Part shown: positions 3,221 to 19,324 of the stretch, in pieces
Numbering within the stretch: position 1 is the stretch's first letter
How the letters are laid out: every line of letters starts with the position of its first letter
IMG/VR virus record: IMGVR_UViG_3300034418_004480
Span: 1 to 20,588 of that record
Length of the DNA: 20,588 nucleotides
Reading direction: 5' to 3' (one strand)
Origin: a virus
The notes under the pieces: model-generated
What the model saw: the letters and a program-made list of their open reading frames with translations, nothing else
What the model was told of the DNA's origin: nothing
The model's database searches: none
Program-made: the position numbers and the translations under genes

Positions 3221-4060
3221 ATGACTGCCCAAAATGAACAGTTATTAAGACAATTTGGAACAGTATCTAATCAAGATGCTCTAAGCAAGATTGGTAATTT
3301 ATCTTTAAGTAATAATTATCTTGTAGTAGTAAATATTCCTAGTGATCTATTATTAGACTTAAATAAATTGCAATTTTCACTTTATAAAAATAAAGACAAT
3401 ATGCCAATTTATTGTTCATCTGCATCTTTACCAGGATCAACCTTTGCTACTTCTGAAGTAAAAGATAATTTTATGGGCGTGACTCAAGAGTTTGCTCACA
3501 CAAGATTATATACTGATATTGATTTTACCTACTATATTGATTCTGAATATACATCTTTAAGAATTTTTGAACAGTGGATGGATTTTATTTCTGGACAAGA
3601 TACACCTTCAAATGACTACGCACAATTTAGGCTGGAGAATCCAGGAATTAATCCTTCGCTTTCAAAGAAGGGTTATTATAGAAGATTTAAATATCCAGAC
3701 ACTTATAAAACAGGAATGTCAATATATAAATTTGAAAGAAATGTTGGAACTAAAAAACAATACTTAACATATAATTTTTACAATGCTTTTCCAAAATCAT
3801 TGTCTGCAACACCAGTTTCTTATGGACCATCCGAACTTCTTCAAGTTACTGTTACGATGAATTATGATCGGTATAATACTTACAAAGAAGACTTGGGATC
3901 TACAAAACCATCCGGACCAAAACCGCCTGGTGAGAAAAGAGGAAGAAGTCTTAGTGGAGAAATACAACAACTCAAAGTATTGGAAAGAAGAAACACATTA
4001 ACTCAAGTTCAAAGAAATAGACTGAATACTCTCCGTAGAGAGTTTCCTGCAGAGTTTTAA
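3221..4060 (+). CDS. Tail-tube-fold baseplate protein, possibly tube initiator gp54-like
   Basis: The 279-residue protein has the pattern of tail tube and tube-initiator proteins. It has MPIYCSSASLPGSTFATSE near residues 61-80, EFAHTRLYTDIDFTYYID near 89-107, an FEQWMDFISG helix near 115-125, and a late LLQVTVTMNYDRYNTYK strand near 207-223 that in this fold closes the beta-barrel. The last 55 residues are a charged, Pro-rich tail (PSGPKPPGEKRGRS) ending in two short helices. T4 gp54 is 320 aa and tube gp19 is 163 aa. The extra length and baseplate-gene context favour an initiator or baseplate-tube adaptor over the main tube subunit. It starts the rightward run from the face-to-face promoter region. 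The fold family is likely; the exact T4 equivalent is uncertain. Confidence 0.75.
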   Translation: MTAQNEQLLRQFGTVSNQDALSKIGNLSLSNNYLVVVNIPSDLLLDLNKLQFSLYKNKDNMPIYCSSASLPGSTFATSEVKDNFMGVTQEFAHTRLYTDIDFTYYIDSEYTSLRIFEQWMDFISGQDTPSNDYAQFRLENPGINPSLSKKGYYRRFKYPDTYKTGMSIYKFERNVGTKKQYLTYNFYNAFPKSLSATPVSYGPSELLQVTVTMNYDRYNTYKEDLGSTKPSGPKPPGEKRGRSLSGEIQQLKVLERRNTLTQVQRNRLNTLRREFPAEF

Positions 4061-4102: not shown

Positions 4103-4825
4103 ATGCCTTTACCAAAAATTTCTACACCAACATATGAGTTGGAATTGCCATCAACTGGAAAGAAGATTAAATATCGTCCATTCCTAGTAAAAGAAGAAAA
4201 GATTTTAATTATTGCACTAGAAACAGAAGATACAAAGCAAATTTCTAATGCGATTGTCCAGATTCTTTCTGAATGTATTTTGACTAGAGGTGTCAAAGTA
4301 AAAGACTTATCTACTTTTGATATTGAATATTTGTTCCTTAATGTTCGTGCCAAATCGGTTGGAGAAACCGTTGAGGTAAATGTAACCTGCCCTGATGATG
4401 GTGAAACTACGGTTCAGATGGAAATTGAACTTGATAGTATCAAAGTAAAGAAAGATCCAAAGCACAGTAATATTATCAAGTTAGATGATAATCTCTCCAT
4501 GAAGCTTAAGTATCCTTCGTTGGATCAGTTCGTAGAAAACAATTTTGAAGTTGCCGATGGTGATAATGATGTGGATAAGTCATTGACAATGATTACTTCT
4601 TGTATTGATATTGTTTATGATAGCGAAGAGTCTTGGAATGCCTCTGACTGCTCTAAAAAAGAACTGAAAGAGTTTGTTGAACAGATGAATACGAAGCAGT
4701 TTAAGGAGATTGAGAATTTCTTTGTAACTATGCCTAAACTCTCTCATACTGTTAAAGTCAAAAACCCAAATACAAAGGTTGAGAGTGAAGTTGTTTTGGA
4801 GGGACTTGTAAGTTTTTTCACTTGA
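4103..4825 (+). CDS. gp26: Baseplate hub subunit gp26 (T4 baseplate family), possible tail-chaperone N-part
   Basis: The 240-residue protein belongs to the T4 gp26 family: an N-terminal PTYELELPSTGKKIKYRPFLVKEEK-type segment (about 9-33, shown in part: LPSTGK, RPFLVKEEK), the ILTRGVKVKDLSTFDIEYLF region (about 58-77), then an immunoglobulin-like or zinc-finger-like region (VNVTCPDDGETT) and a helical half with LKEFVEQMNTKQFKEIENFF. T4 gp26 is 208 aa and is needed for hub assembly. AGGA at short spacing supports ATG 4103. The end of the gene carries a slippery heptamer and stem-loop that could fuse it in -1 to the next gene. The product after slippage would be about 301 residues. Confidence 0.88.
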   Translation: MPLPKISTPTYELELPSTGKKIKYRPFLVKEEKILIIALETEDTKQISNAIVQILSECILTRGVKVKDLSTFDIEYLFLNVRAKSVGETVEVNVTCPDDGETTVQMEIELDSIKVKKDPKHSNIIKLDDNLSMKLKYPSLDQFVENNFEVADGDNDVDKSLTMITSCIDIVYDSEESWNASDCSKKELKEFVEQMNTKQFKEIENFFVTMPKLSHTVKVKNPNTKVESEVVLEGLVSFFT

Positions 4826-4855
4826 GTATGACTCATACCAATCTTGAGTCATACT
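4813..4855 (+). promoter_or_regulatory. Candidate -1 programmed frameshift signal (slippery site plus stem-loop)
   Basis: T TTT TTC at 4813-4819 is in exact phase with gp26 codons 238-239. After a 5-nt spacer, AGTATGACTCA (4825-4835) pairs perfectly with TGAGTCATACT (4845-4855) across a 9-nt loop, giving an 11-bp stem. The -1 frame after TTC is the frame of the gp51-like gene and reads His-Leu-Ser into its ATG. The gp26 TGA (4823-4825) lies at the base of the stem. The same stem also buries the ATG at 4828, so translational coupling is the competing reading. Confidence 0.7.
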
Positions 4856-5007
4856 ATAATGTTAACTTTCAGTTGATGCAGCACCATAAATACTCATTGA
4901 CAGAGTTAGAGAATATGATTCCTTGGGAACGTGAAGTCTACGTTACGATGCTTCAAAATTATATTGAAGAAGAAAATCTAAAGACAAAACAATCAAGTGG
5001 AATTTAG
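4828..5007 (+). CDS. gp51: gp51-like hub assembly catalyst / tail-assembly-chaperone T-part
   Basis: ATG 4828-4830 gives 59 residues. A TTG at 4822 in the same frame is possible but overlaps the gp26 stop and lacks a ribosome site. The core is NVNFQLMQHHKYSLTELEN followed by MIPWEREVYVTMLQNYIEEE. The 'helix, YSLTELENMIPWERE, helix' pattern resembles the second half of phage tail-assembly chaperones, and short proteins of this kind after gp26 are labelled gp51 in cyanomyoviruses. T4 gp51 is far longer (249 aa), so homology to it is doubtful. It lies in -1 frame relative to gp26 and overlaps the next gene by 11 nt. No Shine-Dalgarno site is visible, so it depends on coupling or frameshifting from gp26. 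Confidence 0.75.
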   Translation: MTHTNLESYYNVNFQLMQHHKYSLTELENMIPWEREVYVTMLQNYIEEENLKTKQSSGI

Positions 5008-6583
5008 CAGTCAGGTCTATAGGGCACCAGGAATACCGAAGATAAGCAGTAGAAATATCTCTTCTGCGGTAATGTCTGGTGCTAGGACTGTTTCTGCACC
5101 AAAACTAAAAAGAACATTATTCAGTTTTTCTGGAAGACAGACTCTTCAGGGAGAAAAGCAAACTTTAAAAGTAGAGTCAACTCAAACAGAAGCACTGCAA
5201 GAAACCAATAGAATTCTTGTAGAAATACAAAATCAATTAGCACTAGACTTTGCGAATAGGATTGCCGAAAGAAAGGAGGCAATTAGTGGTATTAAAAGAC
5301 AAACTCAGAAAGAACGAGCAAGTAGAAAGGAGCAGTCTGTTGAGGCTCTGAGTAAGTTTGGGCAGGGCATAACAAAAACATTTGATAAGGTAACGGCACC
5401 AGTAAAAAATATATTCTCAAAGTTGTTGGAGTTCTTTGGAATTATTACGACTGGTATTCTTGTAAACACAGCATTTGATTGGTTGTCTAATGAAGAGAAT
5501 AGAAAGAAACTATCTGATACTTTAGATTTTGTTGGTAAGTATTGGAAAGAAATACTTGGCGGAATAATTGCCATAAAACTGATTGGAACTATAAAAAGTT
5601 TAATTGGTGCATTTAGATTAGCTAGTTTAGTTTTAAGACATCCAGCATTTCTTACCGCTGCTGGTGCAATTGTTCTTGCTGCTGGTGCAATTTCTCTTGG
5701 CAATTATTTAAGAGAACAAAAAGAAAAAAGACAAAGAGAATATGTAGAAGCAATAACAGGAACAAATTATGAAACTAGTGTGTCCGGAAAACCAGCACAG
5801 ATTGTTCCAACTCTTCCACCAGGAAGAGGATATGGTAGAGATAAAGAATCTGTTTTTGATTTGATAAAAGAGGGATTTGGATTTTTTGGAGGAATGTCTA
5901 CAGGTGGAACAGTAAAAAAATATAACTTCAACCCACTGGTAAGACTTTCTCAGGGTGGTTCTGTTGGTGGTAGAGGTTCTGGTGCTGTTGATACTGTTCC
6001 TGCAATGCTTGCTCCTGGAGAAGAAGTTATTAAGACATCGGCGGCAAGATTATTCAGACCATTACTGAAAGATATTAATGATAATTCTGGAAGACTTTGG
6101 AGCACTTTCAGTGCGGGTGTAAAAGAAATGTTGGCGGGCAATGCCATACTTAAAGATATTATGATAAATTTGACTAAAAATTTATCAGACTTTAAAAAAC
6201 AACTTGATGATTTTACGTTTGAATTAAAATTAAAAAATCTTGATGAAGGCAAAGGTGGTGGAGGTGGATACTCATATGGTAGGAAAAATAGTTCAAATAT
6301 GATGATGCTTTCTCCTGGAGAAGAAGTTATAAAATCATCGGCAGCAAGAACATTGATGCCTGTTATAAAAGATGTGAATGTAAGAAGAGAAAGAAAGAAA
6401 AAACCATCAATTACAACAATTCCTATAGACTTGGGAACTAAGGTTGTTGGTGGAGGTCAAAACCAACAACCAACAACAGGATCTTCTGGCGGAAAGGCAA
6501 ATAGAACTCCATCAGGTTCTCCAGTCAATAATTCAAATCCATATATGCAGATAGTTCCAGAAATTCTTGGTATTTACGTGTAA
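4997..6583 (+). CDS. Probable tape measure protein (gp29-like)
   Basis: The frame opens with GTG at 4997, overlapping the gp51-like gene; no closer ATG exists until residue 26. The 528 residues show a charged helical N-half (about 65-135, coiled-coil-like, KEAISGIKRQTQKERASRKE), then hydrophobic helices (FGIITTGILVNTAF about 146-160; ILGGIIAIKLIGTI about 186-200; AAGAIVLAAGAISLG about 222-236). Gly-rich segments and two copies of L-x-PGEEVIK-x-SAAR follow (about 338 and 437). The DTVPAMLAPGEEVIK motif is typical of the C-terminal region of tape measure proteins. Length is close to T4 gp29 (590 aa), and position right after the chaperone pair is the usual one. Its likely role is to set tail length and reach the host membrane at injection. 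Confidence 0.72.
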   Translation: MEFSSQVYRAPGIPKISSRNISSAVMSGARTVSAPKLKRTLFSFSGRQTLQGEKQTLKVESTQTEALQETNRILVEIQNQLALDFANRIAERKEAISGIKRQTQKERASRKEQSVEALSKFGQGITKTFDKVTAPVKNIFSKLLEFFGIITTGILVNTAFDWLSNEENRKKLSDTLDFVGKYWKEILGGIIAIKLIGTIKSLIGAFRLASLVLRHPAFLTAAGAIVLAAGAISLGNYLREQKEKRQREYVEAITGTNYETSVSGKPAQIVPTLPPGRGYGRDKESVFDLIKEGFGFFGGMSTGGTVKKYNFNPLVRLSQGGSVGGRGSGAVDTVPAMLAPGEEVIKTSAARLFRPLLKDINDNSGRLWSTFSAGVKEMLAGNAILKDIMINLTKNLSDFKKQLDDFTFELKLKNLDEGKGGGGGYSYGRKNSSNMMMLSPGEEVIKSSAARTLMPVIKDVNVRRERKKKPSITTIPIDLGTKVVGGGQNQQPTTGSSGGKANRTPSGSPVNNSNPYMQIVPEILGIYV

Positions 6584-6589
6584 TAAGAT

Positions 6590-8200
6590 ATGGAAACTAC
6601 AGAAGTAAAACAACTAAAAATAAATGTCACTAATATAAAAAGTTCTCTTATTAATTACAATAAGAGTCTTATAAGTCTTAGGAAAAGTGAAAAGAAACTT
6701 GTCTTAGAAAATGTAAGAAGACAAAAGACACTTCAGAAAGAAAAAAGAATAGAAACTAAAATAACTCCAAATGCATTGGGGACTATAAAGAATACTATCC
6801 TTTCAAGACCATTAAGTTTCTTTGATAAAATAAAAGAATTTTTTGGTATTGTATTGCTTGGTCTTTTGATTAATAATCTTCCTCAAATAATTGAGAAAAC
6901 TACATCCGCAGTAACAAAACTCATTGAGGTTAGTAGTGGAATTATAAACTCAATAACAACAACGGCAGCATCATTTAAAAATTTTGTTACTTCAATACCA
7001 GAAAATACTAAAACAAAACTGGGAGAAACAAAGGATCAATTAACAACATTAATTGATGAACTCAATAGAATGATTGATCCTTTGAATAAGGCATATACTG
7101 ACCTTGAAAAACAATTACCAGAAACTTCTAAATCTTCTTCAAGTAAAAGTGGTCCTACGGCAGGAACATCAGAAACACAACAAAAGTCTAAGGGTGGAAC
7201 AATAAAATCTGATCCTTCAGCAACAAAAATCATAACAACGGAAAAGGTAACCAGTCCTTTTTCTAGACCAGGTGGAACTGCAAAGCTCAAAAAAGCAAGA
7301 CAATCTTATAATGCTTTTGTAGATTTTGCCGAACTAGCAAGAGGAAACACTGAAAATTATAATATACTTGGCGGAACATCTGATACTTTAGCAGAAGTCA
7401 ATAAATCTTATTATGATTTTATAGTAGAACTTAAAAAATCTTGGAAGGACGCCATTCAACCAGCATCTCCTTATCAAATACCCAGATCTCCTGGACAGGC
7501 ACAACCTCCTGGACCAGTCATACCAACACCAGCAGGATTACCAGCAATAAAAACTGATGATATTATTGGAAGAGTTGGATATACTGGAAGAACAGATCCT
7601 GTGGGAGTAGAAGGGTCTCACATTCATATTGAGTCATATCCAACAAAAGGTAACTCAATACCTAATGGAGTTTTGTATAATATATTAGTTTCTGGGGTTC
7701 CCATGCCAAACCAATTGAGATTTAGTTCTGGTATGTTTACACCAAGCAGACCAAAACATGCTGGATTGGATTATGCTGGAGATCCTAACCAACCAATTAC
7801 TTTGATTGGTGGATTGAAATTTAAAAGATACATACCAGATCAAGGTGATGGATATGGAAATAAAGTTATTATTGAATCTCCAGATGGATCTCAATATACA
7901 TTAAACCACTTAAATGCTGGTCCAGAAAACTTGACCAATCTTATAAAAAAACAAGAAAAAACCAAAACAACAACACAAAATAAAAAAGTATCAAGAGTAG
8001 TATCTCCATCACAAAAAGAAAAACCACTGTTAGCATTTAATTATGATGAAGAAGATACCACAGAAACAATACTTGTGATGGGAACTCAAACAATAATTCA
8101 AAAAGAACCACCAATAATCAAAACAATTATGGTAAATAATAATACTGGTTCCCAATCTTCGTCATCACCAGCAAGTGTATCAAAAATCTGGACAGTATAA
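6590..8200 (+). CDS. Tail protein with hydrophobic helix and permuted M23 peptidase-like domain
   Basis: The 536-residue protein starts with a Lys-rich helical region (1-65), then FFDKIKEFFGIVLLGLLINNL (about 78-98), which echoes KLLEFFGIITTGILVN in the preceding tape measure. A Ser/Thr/Pro linker with SSSSKSGP and PPGPVIPTP follows. Residues about 324-450 carry all peptidase M23 signatures in permuted order: IIGRVGYTG plus SHIHIE (H344, H346) come first, then KHAGLD (H390, D394) and GYGNKVIIES...TLNHL (H440). M23 enzymes are zinc metallopeptidases that cut peptidoglycan cross-bridges. The last 80 residues are low-complexity. The context (tape measure before, hub after) suggests a tail-borne enzyme that opens the cell wall at infection. 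Activity is inferred. It starts 4 nt after the preceding stop codon. Confidence 0.75.
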   Translation: METTEVKQLKINVTNIKSSLINYNKSLISLRKSEKKLVLENVRRQKTLQKEKRIETKITPNALGTIKNTILSRPLSFFDKIKEFFGIVLLGLLINNLPQIIEKTTSAVTKLIEVSSGIINSITTTAASFKNFVTSIPENTKTKLGETKDQLTTLIDELNRMIDPLNKAYTDLEKQLPETSKSSSSKSGPTAGTSETQQKSKGGTIKSDPSATKIITTEKVTSPFSRPGGTAKLKKARQSYNAFVDFAELARGNTENYNILGGTSDTLAEVNKSYYDFIVELKKSWKDAIQPASPYQIPRSPGQAQPPGPVIPTPAGLPAIKTDDIIGRVGYTGRTDPVGVEGSHIHIESYPTKGNSIPNGVLYNILVSGVPMPNQLRFSSGMFTPSRPKHAGLDYAGDPNQPITLIGGLKFKRYIPDQGDGYGNKVIIESPDGSQYTLNHLNAGPENLTNLIKKQEKTKTTTQNKKVSRVVSPSQKEKPLLAFNYDEEDTTETILVMGTQTIIQKEPPIIKTIMVNNNTGSQSSSSPASVSKIWTV

Positions 8201-8203
8201 AAA

Positions 8204-9496
8204 ATGTCATCAGTACAAAGATCATCTACATCTTCACTTAATATAAGAAAGGGTAATAAGGTAGTATCCATATCTCCCGATACTGTTGGACCAAAAACAG
8301 TAAAGTTGGAATATTTTGAGAGTTTACTTTCTCCTATTGTAACGGCAAATATGGTCGTTGTTGATGCTGCTGATGGAGATGTTCCTACTAGCAGAGAGCA
8401 AAATATACAAGGAAAACCAGGTTCCGTATTAAGTTCTCTACCAATAACTGGAAATGAGACAGTTGATTTTGTAATTGAGAATGGAAGTGGAAGATTGGAT
8501 TTGTCAAGATATCCTCTAAGAGTTGATGCTGTTGCCTCAATTGGTAAGGAATCCGAAAGAGAATCTTATGCACTATCTCTTGTGTCTGGATACTCTTATC
8601 AGAATCAGGGAACACAGATATACAAAAAATATCAGAATCAAATATCAGATACTGTTGCAAAAATTTTAAAAGATTATTTTGATGTTGGTGATGATAGATT
8701 GAATGTAGACACGACAAAGTTTCCATATAAATTTTCTGGTTCTGGTAGAGATCCTTTTAAAATTATACTTAACCTTGCTTCTAAGTCTGTTCCAAGTAGT
8801 TCAAAAGATCCTGGATACTTCTTTTACGAGACTAAAGAAGGATTTAATTTTAGAGCAATTTCGGAGTTAATTACTCAAGAACCTCTATTTGAGTATAAGG
8901 AGACTAACGTTATTACTGACGATGATCCAGAAAATAGTTTTAGAATTATTTCGTCACAGTCGATACGAGATCAGAGTCTGATGAGTGCTCTGAAGTCTGG
9001 TGTCTTTTCCTCAAAAAATATATTCTTCAATCCAAAAACATTTAAGTATGAGCAGATTAATGTTAGTTTGGATTTGGAAAAATATCTTGGCAAAGACATT
9101 GAGATCCCAGAAGAATTTTATAGTACCTCAAGAGTTCATGAACACATTTTAGACATTGGAAGTTTGGACAACACTGTGGTTTCGGATGCAAATAATGATC
9201 CAAGAGAGTGGCAGGCAAAATCATCTATGAGATATAATTTTTTGTTCTCACAGATTAGAAATATTACTGTTCCTTGTAATGTAAATTTGTCTGCGGGAGA
9301 TACAATCAATTGCTATTTCCCATATGCAACAAGAGTCAATAAAACAGATTCTCCATACGATCAACATATTAGTGGAAAATATCTTATCTTAAATCTTTGT
9401 CATGAATTTGATTTCAGTGGAGGTGGACAATCTTATACTTACATGACTCTCGTTCGTGATACATATGGTCTATATACTAATAAAAACAAAGCATAA
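8204..9496 (+). CDS. gp27: Baseplate hub protein gp27-like
   Basis: The 430-residue protein fits the hub family that forms the trimeric torus at the tube tip (T4 gp27, 391 aa). Landmarks are KLEYFESLLSPIVTANMVVVD (about 32-52), LSRYPLRVDAVASI, the helix QISDTVAKILKDYF (about 145-160), PFKIILNLASKS, and a C-terminal NVNLSAGDTINCYFP plus GKYLILNLCHEFDF and YTYMTLVRDTYG (about 390-423). The 'leaves the hub, returns with GKYLI-x-x-x-HEF' end is characteristic of gp27/late-control-D-type folds. It starts 3 nt after the previous stop and its TAA is directly followed by the ATG of the gp5-like gene, its expected partner. The T4 assignment rests on pattern and synteny. Confidence 0.78.
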   Translation: MSSVQRSSTSSLNIRKGNKVVSISPDTVGPKTVKLEYFESLLSPIVTANMVVVDAADGDVPTSREQNIQGKPGSVLSSLPITGNETVDFVIENGSGRLDLSRYPLRVDAVASIGKESERESYALSLVSGYSYQNQGTQIYKKYQNQISDTVAKILKDYFDVGDDRLNVDTTKFPYKFSGSGRDPFKIILNLASKSVPSSSKDPGYFFYETKEGFNFRAISELITQEPLFEYKETNVITDDDPENSFRIISSQSIRDQSLMSALKSGVFSSKNIFFNPKTFKYEQINVSLDLEKYLGKDIEIPEEFYSTSRVHEHILDIGSLDNTVVSDANNDPREWQAKSSMRYNFLFSQIRNITVPCNVNLSAGDTINCYFPYATRVNKTDSPYDQHISGKYLILNLCHEFDFSGGGQSYTYMTLVRDTYGLYTNKNKA

Positions 9497-13118: not shown

Positions 13119-13206
13119 GGAAGTGAGACTTGGTAGTCAGAGAGGTCTTATAAACCTTTTCCGCCAGATTAGCGGCTTTGAGGTGGTTCGAATCCACCCA
13201 CTTCTA
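13119..13206 (+). tRNA. Class II tRNA with apparent anticodon UAU, isotype unclear
   Basis: The acceptor stem GGAAGTG (13119-13125) pairs with CACTTCT (13199-13205) including one G-U, and A13206 is the discriminator. The T arm is GGTGG-TTCGAAT-CCACC (13182-13198). The anticodon stem GAGGT/ACCTT closes the 7-nt loop CTTATAA (13147-13153), giving anticodon TAT (13149-13151). A 23-nt variable region contains the stem CCGC/GCGG, as in Leu, Ser and Tyr tRNAs. The D arm is unusually short (GACT-TGGT-AGTC). CCA is not encoded. The anticodon points to Ile (AUA), but the long variable arm does not fit Ile, so the isotype is uncertain. Confidence 0.65.
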
Positions 13207-13208
13207 TC

Positions 13209-13281
13209 GCAGGTTTAGCAATTCGGTAAATGCACCGATCTCATAAATCGGCTCAAACTGGTTCAACTCCAGTAACCTGCA
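13209..13281 (+). tRNA. tRNA with anticodon CAU (Met or lysidine-type Ile)
   Basis: The acceptor stem GCAGGTT (13209-13215) pairs perfectly with AACCTGC (13274-13280), with discriminator A. The D stem is GCA/TGC and the anticodon stem CCGAT/ATCGG closes CTCATAA with CAT at 13242-13244. The T arm is ACTGG-TTCAACT-CCAGT. It is 73 nt long and CCA is not encoded. It has a fully paired first acceptor pair, so it is not an initiator. Elongator Met and Ile (with modified C34) cannot be told apart by eye. Confidence 0.9.
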
Positions 13282-13286
13282 CCTAA

Positions 13287-13371
13287 GTCACCTTGCCGGA
13301 ATTGGTCTACGGAACGAACTTAAAATTCGTCGGGCGTTACGCCCTTGCGGGTTCAAGTCCCGCAGGTGACA
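13287..13371 (+). tRNA. tRNA-Leu (UAA)
   Basis: The acceptor stem GTCACCT (13287-13293) pairs with AGGTGAC (13364-13370), with discriminator A as expected for Leu. The anticodon stem ACGAA/TTCGT closes CTTAAAA with TAA at 13321-13323. The variable arm is GGGCG-TTA-CGCCC and the T arm GCGGG-TTCAAGT-CCCGC. It is 85 nt long and CCA is not encoded. UUA is a preferred Leu codon in AT-rich phage genes, which fits carriage of this tRNA. Confidence 0.95.
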
Positions 13372-13378
13372 CTTAAAA

Positions 13379-13416: not shown

Positions 13417-13878
13417 ATGGGAAAATCAAAAACTTATAGTGACGAACAGTTTGTAGAAGCAGTAAAAACTTCTATGAGTTACAGGCAAGTTTTATCTAAA
13501 CTTGGTTTAAAGCAAGCTGGTGGAAATTATGCGGTAATGAAAAACCGCATAAAAGATATGGGACTAGACACTTCCCATATGACTGGTCAAGCGTGGAATA
13601 AAGGTAAAACACATACCAATAATACAAGACCTATAGAAGAACTTCTTGTAGAAAATTCTACATACCAATCTTATAAGTTAAAACTAAGATTGATTAAAGA
13701 AGGTCTTAAACAGCATAAGTGCGAGTGTTGTGGTATAACTGAGTGGAATGGACAACCAGCACCAATAGAACTTGATCACATTGACGGGAACAGATATAAC
13801 AACACAATAGAAAATCTCCGTATTTTATGTCCCAACTGCCACGCACAGACAGACACGTATCGCGGTAAAAATAAATAA
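13417..13878 (+). CDS. Free-standing HNH homing endonuclease
   Basis: The 153-residue protein has an N-terminal helix-turn-helix-like region (YSDEQFVEAVKTSMSYRQVL, about 7-26, and LSKLGLKQAGGNYAVMKNRI) that probably contacts DNA. The C-terminal HNH nuclease has a zinc ribbon made by C102-x-x-C105 and C138-x-x-C141. The catalytic pattern is D120-H121 (IELDHIDGN), N133 in NTIENLRIL, and H142 in CPNCHAQT. This is a compact His-Me finger nuclease of the type found free-standing in phages. It sits beside a tRNA cluster and before a major structural gene, a common spot for such mobile genes. Its own late promoter and flanking inverted repeat suggest separate control. No Shine-Dalgarno site is seen before the ATG. 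Confidence 0.9.
   Translation: MGKSKTYSDEQFVEAVKTSMSYRQVLSKLGLKQAGGNYAVMKNRIKDMGLDTSHMTGQAWNKGKTHTNNTRPIEELLVENSTYQSYKLKLRLIKEGLKQHKCECCGITEWNGQPAPIELDHIDGNRYNNTIENLRILCPNCHAQTDTYRGKNK
13870..13877 (+). promoter_or_regulatory. Candidate late promoter (AATAAATA) for the 101-aa gene
   Basis: AATAAATA overlaps the last codon and stop of the HNH gene (TAA 13876-13878) and ends 18 nt before ATG 13896. It differs from the consensus at one base. Confidence 0.4.
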
Positions 13879-14239: not shown

Positions 14240-17200
14240 ATGCCATTAAATCGTCTTGATAATTTTATTAAGAATACAGAAGGTCGTATTTTATATGTAA
14301 GTCCATCAGACTTGGACTCAACAGATAGTATTCTTAACACTGGCAACTCACTTGCTCGTCCCTTTAAGACCATTCAGAGGGCACTGATTGAGGCAGCAAG
14401 ATTCTCTTATGTCAAGGGAGATAGTAACGACGAGACTGAGAAGACTACTATCCTTTTGATGCCTGGTGAGCACATTGTTGATAACCGACCAGGATGGTCA
14501 ATTTTTAATGATGGTGGAACTCCAAAGGTTATTCGTTCCGATGCATCTGCCGCAGAAGTTGTCCCAGCAGATTTTTATCTGACACTGGAATCTAACTTTG
14601 ATTTAACACAATCTGGTAATCACCTTTATAGATTTAACAGTATTAATGGTGGTGTTATTGTTCCCAGAGGTGTATCAATCGTTGGTCTTGACTTAAGAAA
14701 GACCAAGGTTCGTCCTAAGTATGTTCCAAATCCAACGGACAGCACACCAAACTCTGCCATTTTTAGAATCACTGGTGCCTGTTATTTCTGGCAGTTCTCT
14801 CTGTTTGATGCAGATGAACTGGGAACAGTTTATACGAAAAACAATAACTTCAGCACGACTAATCAAGCAGTACCAACATTCTCACACCACAAACTCACCG
14901 TATTTGAGTATGCTGATGGTGTAAATGAGGTCTCTAATTACAATATTACAGACCTTGGAATGTACTATGCGAAACTTTCTGTCGCATATGGAACTGGTTC
15001 TGGAAGAGATGTTGATGATAAGTTCCCAACACTTCCAAAAGGATTTGAACCACAAAGACCAGAGTATGAAATTGTTGGCGCATTTGCTGCCGATCCACTG
15101 AAAATCACCAGTATTGAAGCTGGAACTGGTGGAGTAGTAACCAATAGAGTTACTGTAACTACAGAGACAGCACACGGACTTTCGGCAGGAACACCTATTC
15201 GCATAAGTGGTGTAACACCTGTTGATGGAGATACAAATTATAATGTCTCCACAAAAGTTAGTGAGATTGACGCGACCAACCCCAATATCTTCTACTATAA
15301 TTTACTTTATGCACCAGCGACGATGACGACTCCTGGTGTCATCAGTGGAAATGAGTTTGTAACTATTGAGACTGATACCGTATCTGGTGCTTCTCCCTAT
15401 ATTTTTAACTGCTCCATGCGTTCCGTATGGGGTATGCAGGGTATGCACGCTGACGGAAGCAAGGCAACTGGTTTCCGCTCAATGGTTGTTGCACAATTCA
15501 CTGGTGTTTCACTCCAAAAAGACGATAGAGCATTTGTAAAGTATAGTCCTTCTGCAAGAGATTATAGTGATAGTATTACAATCACTGCAGAAACTGGTGG
15601 AGCACTGGCAGGAAACTCTTCATCAAAGGGAACTGTCTATCACTTAGATGCCGATGCGATTTATAGAAGTGGATGGGAATCTACTCACATTAAGGCTTCT
15701 AACGATGCGTTTATTCAGATTGTTTCTGTATTCGCAATCGGTTATAACAAGCACTTTGAGTGTTTGAGTGGTGGTGATGCTTCTATTACTAACTCCAACT
15801 CAAACTTTGGTCAGATTTCACTTTCCGCCGATGGATTTAAGAAAGAGGCATTTAATAAAGACAACAAGGCATATATTACTCACATTATTCCACCAAGAGC
15901 AATCACTGGTTCGGAAGAAAATGTTGATTGGCAGACTCTTGATATTACAAATACCCTTGCAAATGCAGTCAATACTAGACTTTATCTGAATGGATTCACC
16001 TCAGAAGATATTGTCCCACCAGTTCTGACGCAAGGTTATAGAGTCGGTGCCAGAACAAATGATAAGTTATATCTGAACATTAGTGGAACAGAATATTCGG
16101 CAAATATTCTGATGACCGATGGTTCCACAAGTTCTGTCAAGGAATACGCTGTTGGAGCACCATCATCTAATATCTTTACACTTTCATCTGGAAGTCACTC
16201 ATTGGCGACTGGTGAAAAAGTAGTCATTATCAGTGATGATGGAGATCTTCCAGAGAATCTGAGAACCAATACTGTTTATTATGCAATTGTTCCAAGTGGA
16301 AGCACAACAACCTTTAAACTTGCGGCATCAGAATCTGATGCAAGCAATGATTCTCCAATCACTGTTTATGGCGGAACAAATCTCAAGGTTCTGAGTAGAG
16401 TATCCGATAAGATTGCTGGTGATATTGGACACCCAGTTCAGTGGGATAGTTCCAACAGTCAGTGGTACATTACAACAAATGCTGGCAGTGACATTTATAG
16501 TAATCTTTCTGGAACTGGTACATCAACAGCAACATATTTGAAGAGAATTGCAGACACAAGAAGTCTTGATGAGAAGATTTATAAGGTAAGAGTTGTAGTT
16601 CCAAAAGAACTTTCTAACTCTAAGACACCAGAAGATGGTTTTGTTATTCAGGAATCTAGTTCCACTGGATATCGTGGAACCGATAATACAGATTTCCTCA
16701 AATCCACAATCACTGCTGCCGATGACTATGATTACAATAGAAATCCAAGATTCATTGCAACCTGTAGTTTCAGTAGTCCAACGGCAACGGTAAGAGCAGA
16801 ACTTCCACATAACTTAACCACTGGCGACAGTATTATTGTCCGCAACGTAACCGATTCCAATAATACGGTCGGTGCGGCAAATAGTGGATACAACGGTACT
16901 CATACGGTCACCGTTGTTGATGATATGACCTTCAGTTATTCTGTATCATCTAATGTTCCTGGAGCAACATCATCAAATAATATTGGAATCAGAACGAATA
17001 CTTCGCCAAGATTTGAGAGGAATGATTTGCAATCAAACCTCTACATCTATAGAAATGAGGTAATTCAGGAATATGTTGATGGAGAACGTGACGGAATCTA
17101 TCACCTTTATGTTGCAAACTCTGGCAATACAGTTTCAGAGGAATTTACAACCCTTAAGTATGGACAGAATGTTGTTGATCTCTACCCACAACTTGATAGG

Positions 17201-19324
17201 GATAATGTCAATGATAGTCCATTGTCGGCAAAATCATATGCCAAAGTTGCTCCACTTGGTGAGGTTGTAACTAATGATCTGAAGAAGAGTATCACCAGAG
17301 AGACTGTTGATTTACTATCAACAAAGTTAGGATTTGGTCTTGACATTTCCTCTGTTGCCGATGCCACAACAACCACACCAGATATTACATTTGGTAGAAG
17401 ACACGGACTGCAAGGTATTGTAGAGGCAACTGTCAATACTGCTGGTAGTGGACACACAAATGGAACACATTATAATGTAAAATTACTGAACGATGGCACA
17501 ACGACCTGGGATGGTGCCACCGCAAACATTACTGTTTCTGGTGGAGCAGTTGGAGTTGTCACTATTGCCTCACCTGGTTCTGGTTATACCAATGGAGAAA
17601 TTTTAGATTTAGAAGGATTCTCTGGTTCAGACCTTACAATTTCTACAGCAGGTATTTCTAGTGTAATTGGTCATGTAGTTCAGTTTACTGGTGCTGGAAC
17701 AACATCAGACACCTATCATCGTATTACTGCGGTTGGTGCTGCGAATCAAATCTCCATTGCGAGAACAACTGGTGACCCAGTAATTACTCCTAATCATTAT
17801 GCTTATGTTGTAGGTAAGTCCATTGCATTCACTGCCGATACTGCAACTGGTATTACAACTGCCACGGCACACGGTCTTGTAGCAGGAAATAGAGTAAGAA
17901 TCATTGATTCCAGCAACAACAATAAGGGAGACTTCATTGTTGGAAGCAGAGTTGGTGTTAATACGATTACAATTTCTGGAATTGGTGCCACATCTGGTTA
18001 TATCCTGAAGCACGCATTCTCTGCAAACTCTGGAACATCAGATAGATCGGCAGAAAATCTTGGTAAGAGAGCATTTGCAATCTATGGTGGTGAGACACTG
18101 ACTCTTGGTGCTGGAATCACTGCTACAACATCACAATTTGCCGTAAGTGTTCCAGAGTCTGGTATTGGAACCATGAGCAGATTCCCTCTTGGTTCTTATA
18201 TTCAGATTGATGAAGAGATTATGAGAGTTGCGAATGACACTTTACAGGGTGTCAGCAATAATGAACTGGTTGTTATTCGTGGTGCTCTGGCTACAAGACA
18301 GGTGGCACACGATTCTGGTTCGGTTATTAAAAAGGTGGAACCAAGGGCAATTGAGTTCCGCAGACCATCTTATGCTCGTGCATCTGGTCATACATTTGAG
18401 TATCTTGGTTATGGTCCTGGAAACTACTCAACTGGTCTTCCTCAGGTTCAGGTCAAGGCACTACCAGAAAGAGAAGAATTCTTAGTCCAATCTCAAGAAA
18501 GATCTGCTGGTATTGTTGTCTATACTGGTATGAACAACAATGGAGATTTCTTTATTGGAAACCAGAAGAAGTCTGCATCGACTGGTGAGGAAACAACATT
18601 CGATACACCAATCCCAACAATAACTGGCGAAGATCCCTCAAGATTGAGTGCCGTATTTGATGAAGTTACTGTTAAAGAGAGAATTGTTGTTGAGGGTGGT
18701 CCTTCTAATCAGGTTCTTTCGCAATTTGATGGTCCAGTTACATTTAATGGTGAGACTAGATTTATTACTACGCCAAAAGTAGTTAATACTGATGCATCTA
18801 CCAGCACAACAACTGGTGCATTTGTAGTTTCTGGTGGTGTTGGTGTCGGAGGAACATTAACAGCATCTGACGTTCAGGTTGGAACTGTTCATCTGAAATC
18901 TTCTACCAATGAAGTTACGACAACATCAGGTAATCTGAATCTGTGTGCCACTTCTGGTTCTCTTGTTGCAATTTGTACCAATACCACAATCACTGGAATC
19001 CTTAGCGTAACTGATGATATTACTGCTTTCTGGTCTTCTGACGAGAGACTGAAGGATAACATCACACCTATTGATGACCCGCTTGCAAAGGTTGTTTCTA
19101 TTAGTGGTAATACATTTGATTGGAACGAGAAGTCTAATAAGTCTGGTCACGATGTTGGACTGATCGCACAAGAGATTGAGAGGGTTCTGCCAGAAGCGGT
19201 TGTAACGAGAGATAATGGATACCTTGCAGTCGATTACCACAAGGTTGTTCCTCTGCTTGTAGAGGCAATCAAGGAACTCTCCGGCAAGGTAGAAGCACTG
19301 GAGCAAAAACTATCTGATAAATAA
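14240..19324 (+). CDS. Large fibre-like structural protein with C-terminal S74 self-cleaving chaperone domain
   Basis: This 1694-residue protein starts with LDNFIKNTEGRILYVSPSDLDSTD and a beta-helix-like region (NSLARPFKTIQRALIEAARF, TILLMPGEHIVDN, about 35-85), as in pectate-lyase-type fibre shafts. The middle holds repeated beta modules with an HGL-x-x-G-x-x-I signature (about residues 308, 650, 852, 1208). 'GSGYT' segments lie near 1067 and 1110. The C-terminal 95 residues form a peptidase S74/endosialidase chaperone domain: SSDERLKDNI with S1600 and K1605 as the expected cleavage pair, GHDVGLIAQEIERVLPEAV, GYLAVDYHKVVPLLVEAI, and a final coiled coil (LSGKVEALEQKLSDK). This domain trimerises the fibre, then cuts itself off. 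The protein probably reads host surface sugars, but receptor and exact fibre type are unknown. Confidence 0.88.
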   Translation: MPLNRLDNFIKNTEGRILYVSPSDLDSTDSILNTGNSLARPFKTIQRALIEAARFSYVKGDSNDETEKTTILLMPGEHIVDNRPGWSIFNDGGTPKVIRSDASAAEVVPADFYLTLESNFDLTQSGNHLYRFNSINGGVIVPRGVSIVGLDLRKTKVRPKYVPNPTDSTPNSAIFRITGACYFWQFSLFDADELGTVYTKNNNFSTTNQAVPTFSHHKLTVFEYADGVNEVSNYNITDLGMYYAKLSVAYGTGSGRDVDDKFPTLPKGFEPQRPEYEIVGAFAADPLKITSIEAGTGGVVTNRVTVTTETAHGLSAGTPIRISGVTPVDGDTNYNVSTKVSEIDATNPNIFYYNLLYAPATMTTPGVISGNEFVTIETDTVSGASPYIFNCSMRSVWGMQGMHADGSKATGFRSMVVAQFTGVSLQKDDRAFVKYSPSARDYSDSITITAETGGALAGNSSSKGTVYHLDADAIYRSGWESTHIKASNDAFIQIVSVFAIGYNKHFECLSGGDASITNSNSNFGQISLSADGFKKEAFNKDNKAYITHIIPPRAITGSEENVDWQTLDITNTLANAVNTRLYLNGFTSEDIVPPVLTQGYRVGARTNDKLYLNISGTEYSANILMTDGSTSSVKEYAVGAPSSNIFTLSSGSHSLATGEKVVIISDDGDLPENLRTNTVYYAIVPSGSTTTFKLAASESDASNDSPITVYGGTNLKVLSRVSDKIAGDIGHPVQWDSSNSQWYITTNAGSDIYSNLSGTGTSTATYLKRIADTRSLDEKIYKVRVVVPKELSNSKTPEDGFVIQESSSTGYRGTDNTDFLKSTITAADDYDYNRNPRFIATCSFSSPTATVRAELPHNLTTGDSIIVRNVTDSNNTVGAANSGYNGTHTVTVVDDMTFSYSVSSNVPGATSSNNIGIRTNTSPRFERNDLQSNLYIYRNEVIQEYVDGERDGIYHLYVANSGNTVSEEFTTLKYGQNVVDLYPQLDRDNVNDSPLSAKSYAKVAPLGEVVTNDLKKSITRETVDLLSTKLGFGLDISSVADATTTTPDITFGRRHGLQGIVEATVNTAGSGHTNGTHYNVKLLNDGTTTWDGATANITVSGGAVGVVTIASPGSGYTNGEILDLEGFSGSDLTISTAGISSVIGHVVQFTGAGTTSDTYHRITAVGAANQISIARTTGDPVITPNHYAYVVGKSIAFTADTATGITTATAHGLVAGNRVRIIDSSNNNKGDFIVGSRVGVNTITISGIGATSGYILKHAFSANSGTSDRSAENLGKRAFAIYGGETLTLGAGITATTSQFAVSVPESGIGTMSRFPLGSYIQIDEEIMRVANDTLQGVSNNELVVIRGALATRQVAHDSGSVIKKVEPRAIEFRRPSYARASGHTFEYLGYGPGNYSTGLPQVQVKALPEREEFLVQSQERSAGIVVYTGMNNNGDFFIGNQKKSASTGEETTFDTPIPTITGEDPSRLSAVFDEVTVKERIVVEGGPSNQVLSQFDGPVTFNGETRFITTPKVVNTDASTSTTTGAFVVSGGVGVGGTLTASDVQVGTVHLKSSTNEVTTTSGNLNLCATSGSLVAICTNTTITGILSVTDDITAFWSSDERLKDNITPIDDPLAKVVSISGNTFDWNEKSNKSGHDVGLIAQEIERVLPEAVVTRDNGYLAVDYHKVVPLLVEAIKELSGKVEALEQKLSDK
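19316..19323 (+). promoter_or_regulatory. Candidate late promoter (GATAAATA) for the last gene
   Basis: GATAAATA overlaps the last codons and the TAA of the 1694-aa gene and ends 15 nt before ATG 19339. It is also partly dictated by coding sequence (Asp-Lys-stop), so it may be chance. Confidence 0.35.

Follow-up and report, generated by a model that had tools for sequence, protein, structure and literature searches.

A predicted -1 frameshift signal joining the gp26-like and gp51-like reading frames of T4-type phages into one tail assembly chaperone gene

Organization of the gp26-gp51 locus

The stretch of DNA from a cyanophage-like virus analyzed here (IMG/VR record IMGVR_UViG_3300034418_004480, positions 1 to 20,588; hereafter the window, 20,588 nucleotides in full) carries a gp26-like ORF whose end is overlapped by a short gp51-like reading frame (Table 1). 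A preliminary description, made from the sequence alone, had placed this pair directly before the probable tape measure gene. This placement is probable: the downstream ORF has a weak match to phrog_25241, and pairwise BLASTP comparisons of it with the tape measures annotated in Cr30 and HTVC008M gave no significant match. The region from 4997 to 8200 holds two consecutive ORFs of 528 and 536 amino acids, each with hydrophobic segments discernible by eye, the second of which also shows a sub-threshold match to peptidase M23. Either or both of these could be the tape measure, and the latter case would mean a split tape measure.

Table 1. Coordinates of the genes and signal elements at the gp26-gp51 junction of the window
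Feature	Position	Strand	Evidence or remark
Tail tube protein gene, upstream neighbor	3221..4060	+	PF23849 Phage_TTP_2, E=7.8e-21; phrog_45, E=1.2e-40
gp26-like ORF, short tail assembly chaperone (TAC-N)	4103..4825	+	240 aa if unshifted; profile matches
Shine-Dalgarno-like GGAGGG, probable 5' stimulator	4798..4803	+	anti-SD pairing, codon bias
Slippery heptamer T_TTT_TTC	4813..4819	+	in phase with gp26; in-phase T_TTT_TTN in 210/210 distinct junctions
-1 frame extension (gp51-like), TAC-NC C-terminal extension	4819..5007	+	62 codons and stop; phrog_634, phrog_150, hhalign
Spacer between heptamer and hairpin	4820..4824	+	5 nt; sequence
Hairpin, probable 3' stimulator, covering the ATG at 4828	4825..4855	+	-15.4 kcal/mol, z -4.48; frozen stem third positions
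Probable tape-measure gene, downstream, overlapping the end of the extension	4997..6583	+	weak: phrog_25241 tape measure, E=3e-8, 54 residues

At the end of gp26 the codons run AGT (4811-4813), TTT (4814-4816) and TTC (4817-4819), with the stop codon TGA at 4823-4825. These positions place T_TTT_TTC in the phase of gp26, as had been claimed, and in its 0-frame phase it has the form X_XXY_YYZ of bacterial -1 frameshift heptamers. The -1 frame is open from 4789 to 5004 in the window and after a slip would read CAC TTG AGT ATG and onward to a stop at 5005-5007. This is the frame of the gp51-like ORF, and the predicted fusion (239 plus 62 residues) has the 301 amino acids originally given for it. 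Putative stimulators also lie where they are expected at a bacterial site of this kind, namely a Shine-Dalgarno (SD)-like element on the 5' side and a hairpin on the 3' side, and both are constrained at synonymous positions.

Conservation of the slip site among relatives

We compared 210 distinct 270-nt junctions, drawn from 264 usable loci and falling into 16 clusters below 60% identity of the fused protein. The counts derive mainly from IMG/VR contigs along with named phages, and the set covers phages of the Kyanoviridae and Straboviridae, pelagiphages, and phages of Caulobacter, Rhizobium, Pseudomonas and Stenotrophomonas. A single locus was omitted from the counts, as the frame followed in it ran beyond the junction; Vibrio phage D494, SD25, Kuttervirus Sa157lw and the T4-type fused loci stand outside the 210. 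An in-phase T_TTT_TTN is present in every one of these junctions, with C as the last base in 204, T in 5 and G in 1, and its position relative to the gp26 stop is nearly fixed (-10 in 202, -7 in 7 and -13 in 1). The -1 frame, which must be open across a bacterial frameshift site, is likewise open in all 210, for 56 to 68 codons.

Another reading would be that gp51 is a separate small protein made from the ATG at 4828 by reinitiation or translational coupling, with the heptamer a by-product of a conserved Phe-Phe pair. The proximity of this ATG to the gp26 stop is consistent with it, some independent initiation is possible in the window, and several public records, such as those of P-SSM2, nt-1 and phiM9, give gp51 a CDS of its own. 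Against this, codons 1 to 12 of the extension lack ATG in 125 of the 210 junctions and lack all of ATG, GTG and TTG in 90. Since start codons are so often missing from the early extension, the product that is conserved is not a free gp51, and the original claim that its independent initiation is unlikely gains from the dispensability of the start codon across relatives. The codon usage of the Phe-Phe pair argues in the same direction: it is fixed as T_TTT_TTN, whereas only 1 of 62 other Phe-Phe pairs in gp26 is encoded as T_TTT_TTY. With the amino acids held fixed, the heptamer would turn up by chance in all 16 clusters with a probability of about 10^-11 if the clusters are treated as independent, which they are not fully. 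Further, the excess of synonymous conservation is high at gp26 codons 237-239, and Sinorhizobium phage phiM9 retains a slippery T_TTT_TTG even though Leu replaces the second Phe. Together with the unsuitable distance of the SD-like element and the burial of the ATG in a stable stem, both described below, these observations make a separately initiated gp51 very improbable.

Slippage of the polymerase rather than the ribosome, generating mixed mRNAs of which some encode the long form, is another conceivable source of the fusion, and runs of six to seven T are indeed present (seven in Cr30 and HTVC008M). In the described cases of bacterial transcriptional slippage the run is about nine A or T long (PMC5009743), whereas here it is mostly six; moreover, transcription would not require the invariant codon phase of the heptamer, and the SD-like element and hairpin are suited to ribosomes. 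Hence, we regard a transcriptional origin as extremely improbable.

The treatment of the extension in public records varies: it is omitted in those of S-CAM4, P-RSM1 and Aeromonas phage AS-zj, whose extension lacks a start codon, and starts late in those of HTVC008M, Astolliot and Ci1, and no joined gp26-gp51 CDS was present among the records examined. Nor was a second, fused copy of gp26 detected in 731 phage records, in each of which the gp26 query matches one place.

In D494, SD25 and Sa157lw, a gp26-like ORF is accompanied by a recognizable -1 extension without T_TTT_TTN; hence, the heptamer is not universal beyond the main group. D494 and SD25 have a TAATG overlap at the junction; in Sa157lw no ATG is present there and no heptamer is obvious. 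These three phages may join the two frames in another way.

Elements flanking the slip site

The GGAGGG element, which was missing from the preliminary description, lies 9 nt upstream of the heptamer. Its predicted duplex with the anti-SD sequence has an energy of -9.8 kcal/mol, unmatched by the other 18-nt stretches tested in gp26 of the window. Across 57 lineages the mean anti-SD energy at this position is -6.0 kcal/mol, versus +0.45 for gp26 generally, and the preceding Glu codon at the element is GAG in 28 of 36 cases versus 25% elsewhere (Fisher p=1e-10). The element is weak in some lineages, namely the S-CAM4 type, nt-1 and phiM9. In the window it is 24 nt from the ATG at 4828, which is too far for it to serve in the initiation of gp51. 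Taking these features together, we propose that the SD-like element, the heptamer and the hairpin probably constitute a three-part signal in the style of dnaX, in which each flanking element would have a stimulatory role.

The hairpin was found to be as originally described, with the 5-nt spacer, a perfect stem (arms 4825-4835 and 4845-4855, 11/11 pairs) and a 9-nt loop (4836-4844). None of 200 shuffled sequences was as stable, and among the 75 slippery-type heptamers on the plus strand of the window, the one at 4813-4819 has the most stable downstream fold. The ATG at 4828 sits within the 5' arm, as had been noted. Of 66 distinct close relatives, 46 preserve all 11 base pairs of the stem and 54 preserve 9 or more; one subclade has lost the hairpin or carries a different one. 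Of the two conservation checks proposed at the outset, that of the heptamer thus held throughout and in the same phase, and that of the stem held in most of these close relatives. Compensatory changes, which had also been named as potential support, are few, with both sides changed in only 2 of the 11 pairs (7 cells). Covariation was dropped as proof of the stem, there being too few two-sided changes, and a test of synonymous sites was used instead.

Because covariation is thin, support for the stem rests on the freezing of these synonymous sites. In the 57 stem-bearing sequences the stem codons are GAG for Glu (57/57), TCA for Ser (57/57), GCT for Ala (51/51) and TAC for Tyr (50/57), with the remaining Tyr codons (7/57) forming a G-U pair, against background frequencies of 24, 25, 24 and 11%, respectively, in the same genes. 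The Thr codon of the loop drifts in these sequences, with all four synonyms in use. In distant lineages, among them MA01, IC12, Astolliot and the locus L098, stable hairpins of other sequence occur 5 to 7 nt past the heptamer (z -3.2 to -4.0); in several distant lineages the downstream hairpin is weak or absent. In light of its loss or replacement in the subclade and its weakness in these distant lineages, the hairpin is predicted to be dispensable for the mechanism.

These data also bear on the possibility that the frameshift is real but the hairpin uninvolved in it, serving mainly to hide the gp51 start or as an element in mRNA processing or pausing. The stem does cover the ATG, both in the window and in those relatives that carry the stem. 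However, it begins 5 nt past the slip site, which is the usual place of a -1 stimulator, and lineages without the ATG, such as L098, carry different hairpins at the same place. Accordingly, we consider this alternative role unlikely. An intrinsic terminator was ruled out, as no T run follows the stem.

Relationship to the T4 proteins

The gp26-like ORF matches PF12322 (T4_baseplate; E=1.6e-74, residues 9-239) and phrog_150 (E=2.8e-82). The gp51-like extension matches phrog_634 (E=1.2e-27) and also the C-terminal part (237-278) of phrog_150, that is, of the gp26 family itself, which shows that in some members of this family a single protein holds both parts. T4 itself provides such a case: PF12322 is recovered both in T4 gp26 (E=8.8e-64) and in residues 1-201 of T4 gp51 (E=3.9e-52), and the latter spans phrog_150 nearly end to end. 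The cyanophage-type gp51 family aligns to the last 45-46 or so residues of T4-type gp51 (hhalign, probability 96.9, E=1.6e-10). Judging from these alignments, the cyanophage "gp51" corresponds to the extension only and not to T4 gp51 in its entirety; hence, a T4-like long form needs the extension to be joined to gp26. The architecture of a short-form domain followed by a C-terminal extension is thus seen directly in T4 gp51, whereas here the fusion depends on the shift.

Both systems would therefore comprise a short and a long form, the C-terminus of T4 gp51 being homologous to the extension. They differ in gene number: T4 encodes the short form and the in-frame fused form separately, on opposite strands, and the virus of the window would use one gene with a -1 shift. 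The end of T4 gp26 reads AAAGAGTTCTTTGAG, with the heptamer gone. Genes 26 and 51 of T4 are paralogues in divergent orientation (7803-8429 on the minus strand and 8480-9229 on the plus strand of locus L092), and the former heptamer position in gene 26 now has the non-slippery GAGTTCTTTGAG.

A sequence search of the PDB recovered no match among solved structures. In Foldseek searches of the PDB with the gp26 model, the HK97 chaperone gp13 structure (2ob9_B) was among the top matches, at a non-significant E value of 1.5-1.6, a probability of 0.38 and a TM score normalized by target of 0.43. Searches of a viral library returned many gp26-like and baseplate-labeled proteins.

Comparison with known frameshifting systems

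The products of T4 genes 26 and 51 were historically assigned to assembly of the baseplate hub (PMC3004832). Papers that cite Vladimirov, Gautam & Davidson 2022 (Virology 566:9-15) give that study the credit for the tail assembly chaperone role of these proteins in T4-like phages and for poly-T slip sites in their genes (PMC10274946/PMC10885494, PMC12846349). The recasting of gp26 and gp51 as a chaperone pair in the preliminary description is thus supported by T4 homology and conservation but is not new. According to the PRFect paper, some T4-like phages have a short gene and a fused long TAC gene in place of frameshifting (PMC10274946/PMC10885494), and the paper on phage Adele reports poly-T slippery sequences as known in the TAC-N genes of T4-like phages (PMC12846349). 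The literature searched, in which Vladimirov et al. 2022 is represented through citing papers, yielded no prior description of an SD-like element or hairpin at gp26/gp51. In these sources, therefore, the chaperone idea is already present for T4-like phages, and the details of the signal were not found described.

The TAC locus of the Vandenendeviridae/Andersonviridae (phage Adele, PMC12846349) resembles the arrangement predicted here in having a -1 shift at a poly-T sequence (GTTTTT) near the end of TAC-N and an unannotated extension ahead of the tape measure gene; it differs in belonging to other phage families, and the text of PMC12846349 examined mentions neither an upstream SD nor a hairpin. 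With lambda gpG/gpGT (Xu, Hendrix & Duda 2004) there are in common two overlapping ORFs and, as predicted here, a -1 shift where the first of them approaches its end. The placement between the tail tube gene and the probable tape-measure gene would also be lambda-like, whereas the family searches made revealed no homology, and the signal here combines U_UUU_UUC with the SD-like element and hairpin. The lambda slip site is a different heptamer. The layout also parallels that of the E. coli dnaX cassette, which likewise has an upstream SD, a slippery heptamer, a short spacer and a downstream hairpin; its heptamer is A_AAA_AAG, and its shift yields a shorter product, in contrast to the longer product expected here.

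Proposed mechanism and evolutionary implications

On the strength of the sequence, the phase and conservation of the heptamer, the dispensable gp51 start, the frozen stem codons, the homology to the T4 proteins and the location after the tail tube gene, we consider it highly likely that gp26 and gp51 are one tail assembly chaperone gene, expressed in two lengths by a -1 slip at T_TTT_TTC. Most ribosomes would read gp26 to its TGA, producing the short chaperone. A minority might pause, with the SD-like element bound to the anti-SD and the hairpin lying ahead, whereupon the Phe-tRNAs occupying the P and A sites would both slip from T TTT TTC to TTT TTT. Such ribosomes would then continue in the -1 frame and yield a long chaperone ending in the 62 gp51-like residues. 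If the pair works as lambda gpG/gpGT does, its two forms would coat the tape measure protein and bring in subunits of the tail tube. The occurrence and efficiency of the shift, the roles of the stimulators and the chaperone activity are all what we infer from the above lines of evidence.

With respect to evolution, we lean slightly toward a scenario in which the T4 superfamily ancestrally used the three-part -1 signal (SD-like element, T_TTT_TTN and hairpin), which was kept in the Kyanoviridae, pelagiphages, Caulobacter and rhizobial phages, Otagovirus, Menderavirus and several Straboviridae, while the T4 branch swapped recoding for duplication and in-frame fusion. If so, a fixed translational ratio would have given way to two independently expressed genes, offering a natural case of recoding and gene duplication as alternative routes to the same short/long pair. 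Among marine viruses, T4-type cyanophages and pelagiphages are very abundant; at present, their gp51 is annotated as a separate "hub assembly catalyst," given a wrong start codon, or omitted. Annotating the two frames as a single CDS would put hundreds of records right. The findings also support moving the T4 "hub" genes 26 and 51 to the tail assembly chaperones.

Other features of the window

Three consecutive tRNA genes are found at 13119-13372 on the plus strand, for Ile (anticodon TAT), Met (CAT) and Leu (TAA); the window contains no tRNA-Phe. Right after this cluster is an HNH endonuclease ORF (13417-13878; PF13392, E=1e-5, and PF01844), which is probably a homing endonuclease. The ORF at 2056-2715 on the minus strand, between the gp2-like and TnsA-like-N genes, has no Pfam match, and its start resembles a GIY-YIG nuclease by eye. 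The ORF at 14240-19324 encodes a 1694-aa protein of the tail fiber or spike type, with a terminal Peptidase_S74 self-cleaving chaperone domain (residues 1600-1654, E=8e-15).
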